Part shown: piece by piece, positions 24,369 through 61,256 of the stretch | Position numbering within the stretch: the stretch's first letter is position 1 | Layout of the letters: each line of letters opens with the position of its first letter | DNA from: an uncultured Spartobacteria bacterium | GTDB lineage: Bacteria; Verrucomicrobiota; Verrucomicrobiia; Chthoniobacterales; Chthoniobacteraceae | DNA: 64,000 nt | Direction: 5' to 3' | NCBI GenBank assembly: GCA_903882875.1 | Contig: CAIRYQ010000120.1 | Location: forward strand, 1 to 64,000 | Translations under genes and position numbers: made by a program | Notes under the pieces: generated by a model | Seen by the model: the letters and a program-made list of their open reading frames with translations, nothing else | What the model was told of the DNA's origin: nothing | Database searches by the model: none

Positions 24369-26102
24369 CTAGAAAAGAAAGTAACGCTGCGCCATCGGCA
24401 ACACGCTCGCGGGCTCGCACGTGAGCACACGTCCGTCGGCGCGGACGGTGTAGGTCTCCGGGTCCACTTCGATGCGCGGCGTGGCGTCGTTCCAGACGAG
24501 ATCTTTTTTTGTCACGGTGCGCGTGCCCTTCACGGCGACGAGGCGCTTGCCGAGCTTCAGCGAATCGAGCGCGCCGCCTTCCAATCCGATGCCGCTGACG
24601 AAGGTCACGCTGGTGGAAAATTTCGCGCGGCCATGCGCGGCGAATTGCGGGCGGTAGAACATCGGCTGTGGCGTGGGGATGCTCGCGTTCGGATCGCCCA
24701 TGTTGGCCATCGCGATGAGGCCGCCTTTCAAAATCACCTCGGGCTTCACGCCGAAGAATGCGGGTTTCCACACGACGAGATCCGCGAGCTTGCCGGGTTC
24801 GATGCTGCCGACTTCGTGCGCGATGCCGTGGGCGAGCGCGGGATTGATCGTCGTCTTTGCGACGTAGCGGAGCGCGCGGAAATTGTCGGCGGCGGCGTGT
24901 GCGGTGTCGGGCGAGGCGAGCTTTCCGAATTGCACCTTCATCTTGTGCGCCGTCTGCCAAGTGCGCGTGATGACTTCGCCGATGCGCCCCATCGCCTGCG
25001 AATCGCTCGACATGATCGAGATCGCGCCGAGGTCGTGCAGCATGTCCTCGGCGGCGATGGTCTCGGGACGGATGCGGCTCTCGGCGAACGCGACATCCTC
25101 GGGGATTTTCGAGTCGAGGTGATGGCAGACCATCAGCATGTCGAGATGCTCGGCGATGGTGTTCACGGTGAATGGGCGCGTCGGGTTTGTGGACGACGGC
25201 AGCACGTTCAGTTCGCCGCAGACGCGGATGATGTCGGGTGCGTGACCACCGCCAGCGCCTTCGCTGTGAAAGGTGTGGATCGTGCGGCCCTTGAACGCGG
25301 CGAGCGTGGCTTCGAGGAAGCCGGCTTCGTTCAGTGTGTCGGTGTGGATGGCGACCTGCACGTCGAGTTCGTCGGCCACGCCGAGGCAGCAATTAATCGC
25401 CGCGGGCGTGGTGCCCCAGTCCTCGTGCAGTTTCAGCCCGATGACACCCGCGCGCACTTGCTCACGCAGCGGCTCGGGTGTGGAGCAGTTGCCCTTGCCG
25501 AGAAAGCCGAGGTTCATCGGGTATTCGTCGGCGGCTTCGAGCATCCGCGCGATGTTCCATTTTCCCGGCGTGCAAGTCGTGGCATACGTGCCGTGCGCAG
25601 GGCCGGTGCCGCCGCCGATCATCGTGGTGACGCCGCTCGCGAGCGCGTGCTCGATCTGCTGCGGGCAGATGAAGTGGATGTGCGTGTCAATCGAGCCTGC
25701 CGTGACGATGCAGCCCTCGCCCGCGATGACTTCCGTCGCCGCGCCGATGATCATCGTGATGCCCTGCTGGATGCCGGGATTCCCCGCGTGGCCGATACCG
25801 ACGATGCGTCCGCCCTTGATGCCGATGTCGGCTTTGATGATGCCGGTGCGCGCATCTAGGATGAGCGCATTCGTGATCACGAGATCGAGGCACTCCGCAT
25901 CGAGCGCGGTGGGCGACTGCCCCATGCCGTCGCGGATGACTTTGCCGCCGCCGAATTTCACCTCATTCCCGTAGCCGCCGCTCTCCGCGATGAGGTCGCG
26001 CTCGACCTCGATGAAAAGCTCCGTGTCCGCGAGCCGCACACAGTCACCGACGGTCGGGCCGAACATGTCTGCGTATTGGCGGCGGCTGAGCGTGAGGGGC
26101 AT
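24369..26102 (-). CDS. ureC: Urease alpha subunit (catalytic)
   Basis: 577 residues, full length for bacterial UreC. All active-site residues can be seen: nickel ligands H141 and H143 (DTHIHF), the carbamylated lysine K224 (GLKLHEDWG), H253 (HTDTL), H279 (FHSEGAGGG), D367 (SSDSQAMGR), and the flap residues C326/H327 (MVCHHLD). It hydrolyses urea to ammonia and carbamate in the cytoplasm. Subunits beta and gamma are encoded just upstream (3 bp), as separate proteins, the three-subunit bacterial form. Confidence 0.98.
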
Positions 26103-34484: not shown

Positions 34485-36833
34485 TCAATACACAAGGCTG
34501 ACGGTGAAAAATGCATTATAGAGCATGCTGTCCGGTTTTAACGAGGCGCTTTGTGAACCGAAGCCCGGAACCGGCACGGTATTGCTCCGATACATGTCTC
34601 GATAACCACCTCCGGGGAAGAAAAACCCGACACCAAGGGAAATGACGATGTTATCCGTTAGAAATGGCCGGTATTTGAATCCGACGCTGGTGTCCAGGCC
34701 GAGATCATTGCGAATCCCGTCCGTCTGAAGGGCCAGCTTGACTGATGCGGGCTCCACCATCCAAATATAGTTCACGTTGGCGAATCCCTTCAGTTTTGGG
34801 GTAATGTCCATGTCCGCACCAATCCCGAGGATCAGCGCACCGGGATTCACGAAATTGGACTGCCCTTCGGTCTTGCTGGTCCGAAGGTTCATGACGAGGG
34901 AATCGGGCTGCTTGAGATTTACTCCGGTGCCCGGCAGATTGATGCCCTCGTGAGCATACCAACTGAATGGGCCGCCGACAAAGGACGGGTTATCCAGAAT
35001 GGTATCGAACCCGTGCGCCGTGTGGTCGGTCGGCCGCGAGTCACCGCTAGCGTAAAAGCCGGAGAGTTTCAGTCGAAACCAATCCCGATCATAGCTGACT
35101 TCGAGTGCAGCCATCTGCGCATTGATATTCACCCGTCCTCCGGCGAGAGAGTTGAATTCGTCCTCGCCCAATACCTGATAGAAGGCATGAGTCAGGTTCC
35201 AACGTCCAATATGGCCATCACCCGTCCAGCCAAGATAGTAAGACTTCAGGGAATGCCCGCGCAGCCCGCTGTCCGGGTTGCCGAGAGAATTCGTGTCTTG
35301 CACGGTTCCGAGAATCTCCGGACGTGTCAGAAAACCGTTCCGGTCATAGTGGACGCCGCCCTGGTCCAAGTTCACATGCAGGCTGGCTTGCGCGGTATAT
35401 CCTTTGAATAGAAAGTCCTGCCTGAAAATGTTTGCGATGAACACATGCTGATCGCGCGAATCAAGCGAATTGAGCCCGGAATAGGTGTCCTTTTCCCGCA
35501 TGTTGAAATATGCGAGATTATATTGAATCCGGTTGTTATCGTGATTGCCAAAAATTCGCGCCCCGAGGTTCGTGTCCGCGAAGATGAATCCCCGGAAATC
35601 GGAAATGAATGGCTGCGTTCCGATGCGAGCGGAGACAAAGTCATAGTTTTCGGAAACATCCCCGATGTGGACCTCGGCAAACGCCTCCTGAAGCGCATAG
35701 AAGTCCCGAAAGCGTGTCGTGTAATGCGTGCCTCCAAGGGCGCTGTTCCCATACACCGCCGAAGGGAGCGTGACTCCTGTCGGCAGTTGCCCCGTGGCGG
35801 GATCCACCTGGACAAGCGGCTTTGCGCCAGCCAACGGCTGAAGCTGTGATGCCAGATAGTTATAGAAGTTGGCGGGGTTCACGGTGGATGTGAAACTGCC
35901 GGGGTTTCCCGCCCGCACGTTCACACCCGTGGAACTTGCGGGAATGGCTCCGATGGCGGCGGTATTGGGCACATAGCCGGAAGGATACTGTGAGCCAAGG
36001 GGGAACAGCAGATTGCTTTCCCTCACGCGAGTCCAGTTGGTGTTATAGACGCCATTGATTCGGATGAGCCACTGCACCGGCTTGAACGCAGTCTCGCCTT
36101 TGAACAGATCAAATCCAAACGACGTGTCATTTGAATAGGTCATCTGATCGCCGCGCCCAAAGAATTCCGCGCTATTCGGATACGCCGTGCTGACTCCGCT
36201 CGGCACGGGCAGCTTGCGCATCTCAAAGAGGGAAAAATTCTTCGCCGTCAGATCCATGAAAATGTCCTGACCAATCACCGGGACGTCGCCCTTCAGCTTG
36301 CTCTGTTCATAAGGATGCCATAGCCGCGGGGTGTCGTATTGGTAAGGCGTCTCCGTGGACATGTCCCGATAGCGTTGCCAGTGGGGAAAAGGAATCAGCC
36401 AGCGATTAGGTACGCCCTTCGCATGAGGCAGGAGGCCCAGCCCTTCCCGCCCTTGCGGATAGGATGGATAGGTGAATGTCTTGTTGATGGGATCGTGCCC
36501 GATTACATCGCCGCGCGGGAGCTTCAGAGTTCCCGGCAGGACTGATTCCTCGGGAAAAAGGAGCAGGCTGTTCGGATCCATTTTCAGGGCGGGCTGATCC
36601 CACATGCCCGGATCGGGATTGAATGCCGCCGGTGAACGCGGCAGTTCGCCGAGTCCGTTCGCCAAGTCGCCATCGGCAGTGGCTGCGGATCTCAGTTCCG
36701 GCGAACTCTTGCGGAATTTCAGCCTTTCGTCCGCGCCGGAAACGCCCGCAATCCCGAGGCCCACAAGCGATGCGCACGCCCACAAGACCGGACGGGTTCG
36801 CCGGGAGGGCGAGAGCGGGCTCTGGGTTGGCAT
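34485..36833 (-). CDS. Large outer-membrane beta-barrel protein paired with the multihaem cytochrome
   Basis: 782 residues. Basic N-terminus and hydrophobic core (about 12-32) ending GVSG-AD make a signal peptide. The mature protein is rich in aromatic/glycine strand patterns (TSFGFDLFKGETAFKPVQWL, YNLAYFNMRE, GFKYRPFLTDNIVISLGVGF) and ends in NAFFTVSLVY, the terminal aromatic typical of outer-membrane barrels. The N-terminal 200 residues may be a periplasmic plug or partner-binding region. Gene order suggests it houses the ten-haem cytochrome in an electron conduit. ATG at 36833 fits the signal; the frame is open to 36989. Confidence 0.75.
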   Translation of the reverse strand: MPTQSPLSPSRRTRPVLWACASLVGLGIAGVSGADERLKFRKSSPELRSAATADGDLANGLGELPRSPAAFNPDPGMWDQPALKMDPNSLLLFPEESVLPGTLKLPRGDVIGHDPINKTFTYPSYPQGREGLGLLPHAKGVPNRWLIPFPHWQRYRDMSTETPYQYDTPRLWHPYEQSKLKGDVPVIGQDIFMDLTAKNFSLFEMRKLPVPSGVSTAYPNSAEFFGRGDQMTYSNDTSFGFDLFKGETAFKPVQWLIRINGVYNTNWTRVRESNLLFPLGSQYPSGYVPNTAAIGAIPASSTGVNVRAGNPGSFTSTVNPANFYNYLASQLQPLAGAKPLVQVDPATGQLPTGVTLPSAVYGNSALGGTHYTTRFRDFYALQEAFAEVHIGDVSENYDFVSARIGTQPFISDFRGFIFADTNLGARIFGNHDNNRIQYNLAYFNMREKDTYSGLNSLDSRDQHVFIANIFRQDFLFKGYTAQASLHVNLDQGGVHYDRNGFLTRPEILGTVQDTNSLGNPDSGLRGHSLKSYYLGWTGDGHIGRWNLTHAFYQVLGEDEFNSLAGGRVNINAQMAALEVSYDRDWFRLKLSGFYASGDSRPTDHTAHGFDTILDNPSFVGGPFSWYAHEGINLPGTGVNLKQPDSLVMNLRTSKTEGQSNFVNPGALILGIGADMDITPKLKGFANVNYIWMVEPASVKLALQTDGIRNDLGLDTSVGFKYRPFLTDNIVISLGVGFFFPGGGYRDMYRSNTVPVPGFGSQSASLKPDSMLYNAFFTVSLVY

Positions 36834-37124
36834 CGGCACGCACGGCTCATACGACAAATGCGAAACTCGGCGCAACGCGAAACTCAGGGCACGCAGGGGC
36901 GATGCGTCTAATCGTGTTATCGGTGGGCAGTGGCTCATTTCAAAACGGGGTACGTCCTGAATGGGAAAAATGAACAGCCTCTCTCGCACTCATGCACCTG
37001 CGCCTGCACGAGCTGAAGAATGTTTGGCGACCGCTAGCAGCCGACCCCGCCGGGCGTGTGCCCGGCGCGAAAAGGCCGTTTTCCGTGGCAAAAGCGGGTC
37101 TTGCGGCCATTCGGAGCATCCTCG

Positions 37125-37376
37125 GGAGGTTCCACGGAGTACTCTGGAAGTTCCAAAGGGTTCCGTGGAGGTTCCAAAGCGCCCCTTGGAACGTCCAAGG
37201 AGAACGCTGGAAGTGCCAAGGAAATCCTTGGGGATGCCAGCGGACTCCGTGGAAGTCGCACGGAAGTCCGTGGAAGTCGCACGGAAGTCCGTGGAGTGTG
37301 GCAAGGAGCCTTTGGAGTTTGCCGGGGATTCCTTGGAACCTCCAAGGAACGCGCCGGAGCTTCCGGGGAGTGTACC
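37125..37376. repeat. Array A: twelve 21-bp units
   Basis: Exactly 12 x 21 bp. Every unit begins GG; the common form is GGAAGTTCCAA followed by GGAANTCCGT. Units at 37251 and 37272 are identical, the others diverged. Within a unit, GGA recurs at positions 1 and about 12, so the motif also repeats about once per helical turn, and GGA/TCC dyads recur. No stop codon occurs across the array in nearly any frame, giving heptapeptide-repeat translations in all six frames; I regard that as a by-product. No spacers or flanking cas genes, so not CRISPR. Confidence 0.9.
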
Positions 37377-37385
37377 GCCGAGCGC

Positions 37386-48479: not shown

Positions 48480-48515
48480 GGGCGCGGAAAGGCTTTTGGC
48501 GCATTTGGAATGAGA

Positions 48516-48641
48516 TTCGGTGTGCGTGCGGAGGAGTTCAGTGTGCTCGCAAAGGTGTTCGGTGCGCCCGCGATGCTGTTGGATACGCCCGCAAGGGTGT
48601 CCGATGTGCTCGCAAGGGTGTTCGGTGGATGCACAAAGGGT
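48516..48641. repeat. Array B: six 21-bp units
   Basis: 6 x 21 bp, common form TTCGGTGTGCTCGC then AAGGGTG; the units starting at 48537, 48579 and 48600 are the closest to each other. Same period as arrays A and C but a different sequence. Weakly similar 21-bp blocks may precede and follow it. One frame gives a degenerate FxVLARV heptapeptide repeat without a gene-like start. Confidence 0.85.
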
Positions 48642-48739
48642 TCCTTCTGGCGCGCCAGTGGGGTGGAAACCTGGGGACAGGCTCGTTTTTGATGGAAAAT
48701 GGCGATTTATCGCAGAAACGGCTTTCTAGTCCTCTGAAG

Positions 48740-49096
48740 AAGCACATGCTTTTTCTGTGAAAGCATGTGCTTTTACAATGAAACCACATGCTTCTTTCAT
48801 AAAGACATGTGTTTTTATTATAAACGCATGTGTTTTTGACATAAATTCATGTGCTTGTGTTCTGATTTCATGTGCTTTTTATCTGAACACATGTGCTTTT
48901 ATTTAATACGCATCTGATTTTATCACGCACACTTGTGCTTTTTCCTCATAAGCATCTGCCTTTATCACCAACGCATGTGCATTCGTTTTGAAAGCATTCG
49001 CTTTTATGATAGATGCGTGTGCTTCTGTTAAAAAAACATCCGTCTTTTGTGTAAAAGCACTTGCTTTTTTCACAAAAGCATGTGCATTTTCCGTGT
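48740..49096. repeat. Array C: seventeen 21-bp units with CANNTG core and T-tract
   Basis: 17 x 21 bp with no spacing error; common form AAGCATGTGC then TTTTTTCATAA. Position 4 is C and position 9 is G in all 17 units; 13 units have CANNTG there, two of them (units 1 and 3) as CACATG, the reverse complement of CATGTG. A T-rich tract follows in each unit, so tracts lie two helical turns apart, in phase. Read in step with the unit, seven early units end in TGA or TAA, so it is not coding in that frame. Two degenerate units follow to about 49138. The region is AT-rich amid GC-rich DNA. Confidence 0.92.
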
Positions 49097-49209
49097 CATT
49101 GAGGGCTTTTCCACCGATCCTTCGGGCCTTTTTTGCAGATGCGCGGGGTGCCGCGGCGGATGCGGGAGGGCCGGGGGCGGAGGCTCTCGGCTCCGCATCC
49201 CATCATCCC

Positions 49210-49845
49210 ATGAATACGACAAAAGCCAGCGTGGATTTCACGCGCTATCAGGCGGCCGAAATGGCCAATATCGGCCAGCTCATTTTTGAACGGATGTCCG
49301 ACCATGCGGCGACCTTCCCCGATCCGCCCGTGGACATGCCGGCGCTGGGGCTGCAAGTGGAGGATTACAAGGCAAAGCTGTCGGCGCGTGCGAGTCGCGC
49401 GGCGGCGGATGTGCTGGCGCTGAAGGCGGCGCGCGCGGGCCTGAACCGTTCGCTGGGCCTGCTCGGCGGCTATGTGAACCGCGTGGCGCAGGGAAAGCCG
49501 GCCCTCGTGGAGCTGAGCGGCTTCCCTTCCTACGACACGGCGCGCACGCCGGATCGTTCGGCTCCGGGCGCGCCGACGAATCTGCGGCTGAAGCACGGGG
49601 TGCAGAAGGGGACGGTGCTGGCGAGGTTCCGCGCTCAGCGCAGGCCGAGCACGAACGAGGTGCAGGTGTGCCTGGGCAATCCCAACGACGAGTCGGCGTG
49701 GCGGACGGCGGGGATGTTCCTGGGGCAAAGGGCGCTGCTCACGGGGCTGACGCCTGGCACCACCCTCTGGGTGCGCGTCCGCACCGCGGGCCTGGGCGGG
49801 GTGATGGGGAATTGGAGCGACCCGGCGGAGATCATGGTGCTGTGA
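49210..49845 (+). CDS. Small fibronectin type III protein next to array C
   Basis: 211 residues, no signal peptide seen. N-terminal helical region (about 1-100: QAAEMANIGQLIFERMSDHA, then Ala-rich helices) and a C-terminal fibronectin-III domain (about 118-211: GAPTNLRLKHGV, LTGLTPGTTLWVRVRTAG, GNWSDPAEIMVL). Similar two-part proteins occur in Bacteroidota and Verrucomicrobiota; their role is unknown. The frame stays open upstream into array C, but that extension is repeat-derived, so I set the start at the ATG at 49210. Its promoter would have to lie within or beside array C. Confidence 0.8.
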   Translation: MNTTKASVDFTRYQAAEMANIGQLIFERMSDHAATFPDPPVDMPALGLQVEDYKAKLSARASRAAADVLALKAARAGLNRSLGLLGGYVNRVAQGKPALVELSGFPSYDTARTPDRSAPGAPTNLRLKHGVQKGTVLARFRAQRRPSTNEVQVCLGNPNDESAWRTAGMFLGQRALLTGLTPGTTLWVRVRTAGLGGVMGNWSDPAEIMVL

Positions 49846-61160: not shown

Positions 61161-61256
61161 AATTTAAGATTTCAGATTTCAGATTTGGGATTTCAGATTT
61201 CCCGCTCGCCCGGAGCCCGGAGAAATCTTAAGTCTTAAATCGCAAATCTTAAATTC
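61161..61256. repeat. Hairpin element of AGATTTC heptamers
   Basis: Left arm AATTTAAGATTTCAGATTTC and onward (61161-61201), right arm GAAATCTTAAGTCTTAAATC and onward (61222-61256), near reverse complements around a loop of about 20 bp. It ends 1 bp before the ATG of the DUF721 gene, so translation initiation of that gene occurs at the foot of the hairpin. Confidence 0.8.

Follow-up and report, generated by a model that had tools for sequence, protein, structure and literature searches.

Described repeat systems and array C

Bacterial minisatellites, or VNTRs, are short tandem repeats that lie 5' of genes and are homogenised within the array, while the iterons of plasmid replication origins are intergenic direct repeats present in many copies, with a spacing of about two helical turns. 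Where regulatory DNA is conserved, it is usually recognised by its sequence. Intergenic tandem repeats have been mentioned in Planctomycetota (PMC9426551). In the open-access papers that we searched, no prior description of arrays of the kind reported here was found.

The array studied here, array C, lies in the window, by which we mean the whole 64-kb stretch of verrucomicrobial DNA analysed (Table 1). From its comparison with other loci, array C appears to be one of a dispersed intergenic class whose period is 21 bp (in rare cases 20.5-22 bp), located 5' of a multi-copy helical-FN3 gene family and patchily distributed in Verrucomicrobiota. Like minisatellites and VNTRs, these arrays are short tandem repeats 5' of genes, and their units are homogenised within each locus. 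They differ in having one fixed period over many loci and genera, a narrow range of unit number and an association with one gene family. The likeness to iterons lies in direct, many-copy, intergenic repeats with a spacing of about two turns; the arrays differ from iterons in being chromosomal, in occurring at many loci per genome with mostly different units, and in having a 7-bp rather than a helical substructure, and no initiator gene was seen beside them. An iteron origin with one shared unit serving one initiator was rejected, as most pairs of unit consensus sequences are no more alike than permuted pairs. CRISPR arrays are similarly regular and gene-adjacent, and some 21-bp units have dyad symmetry as well. 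In contrast to CRISPR, the units of array C are contiguous without spacers, as the earlier note had pointed out, no cas genes were seen beside the 21-bp arrays, and unit identity shows no polarity along them (proximal minus distal +0.014, Wilcoxon P 0.19, 27 arrays), by which CRISPR-like polarised growth was also rejected.

Table 1. Positions of the arrays, palindrome copies and family gene in the window
Feature	Position	Strand	Description
Array A	37125..37380	.	~12 units x 21 bp, third unit sequence
Companion palindrome of array A	37069..37082	.	GAAAAGGCCGTTTT, 2 mismatches
Array B	48509..48640	.	~5-6 units x 21 bp, different unit AGGTGTTCGGTGCGCCCGCAA, directly upstream of array C
Degenerate palindrome copy	48696..48709	.	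AAAACGGCCGTTTT, 3 mismatches, weak; between arrays B and C
Array C	48740..49096	.	17 units x 21 bp, consensus AAGCATGTGCTTTT(N)7, imperfect dyad AAGCA-TG-TGCTT
Two degenerate trailing units, in register	49097..49138	.	G9, C10, T12-14 retained; read from sequence
Gene of array-linked family (211-aa protein)	49210..49845	+	N-terminal helical bundle, C-terminal FN3-like sandwich; no known function

The 17 exact units that the earlier note had described are all present without gaps, with C4 and G9 invariant (17/17 each) and a CANNTG core in 13/17, just as it had counted; T12, which it had missed, is likewise invariant (17/17). At lags of 21, 42 and 63, the self-match of array C reaches 0.607, 0.635 and 0.571, respectively, and the lag-21 value compares with 0.285 +/- 0.027 (maximum 0.369) in 2000 first-order Markov shuffles. 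Beyond the 17 units, the register runs on to the end of the trailing pair, GGGCTTTT at 49097 and GGGCCTTTTTT at 49118. The imperfect dyad is present in most units and the T-tracts are phased. As a general feature of the arrays the CANNTG core does not hold up, being specific to array C. The neighbours of array C are the FN3-like gene, which begins downstream after a gap of 113 bp, and what look like sugar-nucleotide genes. Besides array C, strong periodicity in the window is confined to arrays A and B, leaving aside a single weak 7-bp tract; array A lies upstream of a large gene on the minus strand that starts near 36832-36989, and no member of the FN3 family is close to it.

Association of the arrays with a helical-FN3 gene family

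The AlphaFold2 model of the 211-aa protein (mean pLDDT 89) consists of four helices followed by a seven-strand sandwich, and Foldseek matches it to FN3 domains in the FN3-like part only. Pfam fn3 is detected weakly in 5/13 family members (best E 0.00043), and the 211-aa protein itself (P0001) is not among them. Similar FN3 proteins occur also in Bacteroidota and Planctomycetota. The linked gene therefore shares a C-terminal FN3 fold with FN3-domain proteins (Pfam PF00041; phage tail proteins in PHROGs) and differs from them in its N-terminal helical bundle, which has no database match. A phage or plasmid origin of the family was considered and rejected, as no phage or plasmid relatives were found for the member or the profile searched. 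Many family members carry an in-frame N-terminal tail such as MPAPLTWDTPGLTWDSGLTWDG, and a WDTPGLTWDSG-type tail is often present. The genome of array C holds 14 copies of the family by protein search and 19 by profile. At two loci (L066 and L067) the family gene is followed downstream by a gene starting MFDPSKPA... or MPFDPT..., which runs on into collagen-like GXY repeats; a similar start was seen at L007 and L015.

Across Verrucomicrobiota genomes, an array lies upstream of the family gene at 41/57 loci (72%) and has a period of 21 bp at nearly all of them, compared with 1/61 for downstream controls. Here an array is defined by a periodicity score of at least 12, and the 57 loci, tallied from per-locus tables, are those with at least about 350 bp of upstream DNA. 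The lone strong array on the downstream side (L047 in G269, at about 1019-1162) is a 10-bp tandem repeat. Of the first 14 loci in the genome of array C, 13 are preceded by such an array, one with a period of 22 bp, and the fourteenth meets a contig end 258 bp upstream. Arrays also precede family genes in other genera, other families and a second family of the class (G025, G030, G269 and named Verrucomicrobiota MAGs), in a sample consisting mostly of MAGs and with named genomes from Verrucomicrobiota only. No array was detectable at 16/57 loci, especially in G269 and G018, and some of these are gene fragments. The earlier note had allowed for an assembly artefact should the array be unique to its contig; as the pattern recurs at related loci in many independent assemblies, it is not one.

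The distribution of periodic tracts was also compared between genomes. Period 21 accounts for 17/24 periodic tracts in the genome of array C (762 kb sampled), where a few of the tracts lie inside genes, and the family-rich genome G016 has 7 period-21 tracts together with one of 22 bp and one of 41 bp (400 kb), although both densities are biased upward because the sampled contigs were chosen for carrying family genes. In genomes poor in or free of the family (400 kb each), the number of period-21 tracts was 0 in G030, 1 in G018 and 1, a weak one, in G054. A search with an HMM built from 55 members placed distant family members directly downstream of three apparent orphan arrays. Other arrays are real orphans without a family gene (array A of the window, L077, L082 and L108), and some precede TIR-domain or UG19 reverse-transcriptase genes instead of the FN3 family; the link between array and family is consequently not exclusive. 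The arrays have a median of about 15 units, mostly 13-20, and commonly span 300-420 bp.

The unit consensus mostly differs from locus to locus. There is nevertheless an excess of related pairs over the permuted maximum of 15, namely L002/L066 with 17/21 matching positions (different genera, same strand relative to the gene) and L069/L045 with 16. What recurs beside one gene family across genera is thus a noncoding element whose repeat length is kept while its sequence is largely free, and ordinary homology searches are for this reason blind to it. Period, side and size are the properties retained between loci, with the unit sequence left largely free.

Control element or persistent satellite

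Taken together, the observations point either to a control element that has not been described before or to a genomic satellite of unusual persistence. The explanation that we put first, with about an even chance of being right, is that array C is a 5' cis element of FN3-like genes whose register is held by concerted evolution. The array would then serve the gene downstream of it, and its register would probably be maintained jointly by unit-to-unit conversion and by selection that favours a regular array. At loci with the WD-type tail, only about 40-90 bp separate the end of the array from the probable start codon ATG (about 42 bp at L015). This is too short for a promoter plus a normal leader, and the array therefore probably either forms part of the transcribed leader or includes the promoter. 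Near array C no sigma-70-like site was detected, although that consensus may not fit promoters of this phylum, and no conserved promoter was found.

The structured transcript that the earlier note had suggested is possible for array C itself, which folds far better than its shuffles (z -7.46), and it is less apt for the class: over 42 arrays the mean z is -2.2 against column-permuted arrays, and about 40% of them show no effect. Sense and antisense strands are alike in stability, on which ground a strand-specific RNA structure was rejected. Array C matches no known RNA family and no conserved RNA structure was found. Compensatory covariation within units was rejected too, with nothing convincing seen and with the high values in L010, L024 and L039 looking like phase slips.

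How a register can outlast its sequence is illustrated by the orthologues L024 (G006) and L034 (G002). Their genes are 99% identical and their arrays have 13 units each with no gap. The arrays differ over a block of ~38 bp with ~17 differences and are nearly identical in the remainder; in this one pair, the block looks like an in-register replacement by other unit variants. In-register conversion between units means that the period can persist without selection on helical geometry. The persistence of the period as the sequence drifts, which the earlier note had described, is supported.

A broader form of the cis-element reading, which we consider rather unlikely, would define a class of cis elements through the length of the repeat instead of its sequence. 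Every gene copy would carry its own array 'barcode', subject to in-register conversion and read by its length or through its own transcript, and the class would control the helical-FN3 family and, together with the palindrome AAAACGNCCGTTTT in one genus, defence-type genes (TIR and UG19 reverse transcriptase) as well. If the arrays are functional, they would represent a cis element whose geometry or transcript structure is what is read, and its many natural variants would lend themselves to direct tests. If they are not, they would be a clear bacterial example of concerted evolution of the satellite kind, with the period locked. In both cases, they offer a way into a protein family that is uncharacterised and highly duplicated.

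That the arrays are a functionless satellite is a serious alternative, though we judge it less likely than the cis element. An ancestral 21-bp array, perhaps itself 3 x 7 bp, would have been duplicated with the gene, with slippage and conversion homogenising the copies and the period inherited and not selected. It would account for unit identity that is flat in mid-array and decays at both ends, for the block replacement described above, for units related across loci and genera, for the 7-bp substructure, and for duplicates of array plus flank that are scattered through the genome (L194, L195, L208 and L210). On the other side, presence at such a proportion of loci, across family- to class-level divergence, always 5' and with narrow unit numbers, is more persistence than slippage alone should give. 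Indels bear on both sides of the question. Over 34 arrays, 1858 substitutions from the array consensus contrast with net shifts of the register, 10 bp in total, in no more than 6 of them, which speaks against the satellite reading; in the flanks of the dispersed duplicates of the same genome as array C, indels are also few, at 0-1 per 15-40 substitutions, and their rarity in the arrays accordingly suggests but does not prove selection on spacing. The strict register reported in the earlier note is borne out for array C, whose period outlasts the drift of its sequence, but is not absolute across the class, where periods of 22 bp (L013, L053 and L105) and 20.5 bp (L166) and occasional shifts of 1-3 bp occur.

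Among the readings that the earlier note had proposed is a protein-binding or bent-DNA platform; here 21 bp, as two helical turns, would set dyad sites on one helical face for a dimeric or nucleoid protein. We regard this as improbable. Array C combines its imperfect dyad with phased T-tracts (0.77 coherent A-tract per unit, P 0.03), periods bunch at 20.5-22 bp, and consensus dyads are modestly enriched over all arrays (mean arm 4.25 vs 3.4), but many arrays have no dyad. Coherent A-tracts are found in 5/34 arrays, array C included, so that the proposed bending may apply to array C and was rejected as a general property. In the A/T content of units from 33 arrays, the 7-bp harmonic is 2.5 times the null (z 9.5), whereas that at 10.5 bp is 1.04 times the null, and cores on one helical face are not supported as a shared principle. 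The power of the 7-bp harmonic is 0.244, compared with 0.106 in natural 21-mers (z 7.7), and the pattern, clear in about 13/33 arrays, is missing from others. These values favour 3 x 7 bp over two helical turns as the common principle. Moreover, with unit sequences that mostly differ, no single sequence-specific binder could serve all arrays.

Companion palindrome and neighbouring genes

In the genome of array C, the palindrome AAAACGNCCGTTTT has a 21-bp array close to 15 of its 20 best sites, and two of the remaining five lie near contig ends; array C has no good copy. Palindrome and array are linked in G002 as well, and sporadically in G006, G009 and G018. As a universal companion of the arrays the palindrome was rejected, since it is absent near sites in other genera, and it is accordingly a lineage-specific addition. 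At L194 / L214 (G000:C116:1-2657), a 21-bp array and the palindrome stand directly before a UG19-type defence reverse transcriptase (PADLOC E 4.6e-151), and the leader of this gene also precedes TIR-domain genes at C120, C89 and probably C108. The UG19 reverse transcriptase was rejected as a general writer of arrays, as it occurs only in this genome among 38 searched.

These neighbours could suggest that the arrays are recombination or gene-capture sites, acting as homologous landing pads that exchange cargo genes (TIR, UG19 reverse transcriptase, nuclease-like), an idea that we find very improbable. It draws on a common array type, palindrome and leader of 290-390 bp that stand before different genes in a neighbour list read by eye, and on the low GC3 of several array neighbours (about 0.52-0.6, vs near 0.8-0.9 for the host). 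The GC3 of the FN3-family genes, however, is mostly host-like (0.77-0.93, one at 0.61), and an unsystematic look noticed no integrase, terminal repeats or target duplications. That the arrays encode heptad peptide repeats could be suggested by the equality of 21 bp and 7 codons and by L003, L006, L011 and L012, where an open frame runs from the array into the gene. This is scarcely credible, and counts of open frames refuted it as a general explanation: array C, which the earlier note had called non-coding in the unit frame, is closed in every frame on both strands, 7/34 arrays have no open sense frame, the total of 27 open matches permutation (22.4 expected), the 3-bp harmonic of A/T content is below the null, and arrays of 22 and 20.5 bp exist.

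Two further observations concern other parts of the window. Short 7-bp tandem tracts (ATTTCAG and AAATCTT) form an A/T-rich inverted pair between two genes at 61162-61254, and they may have a connection with the 7-bp substructure seen within the 21-bp units. An Rfam match to 5_ureB_sRNA (72.4 bits) lies at 25646-25938 on the + strand beside apparent urease genes, and may merely reflect the conservation of ureB.
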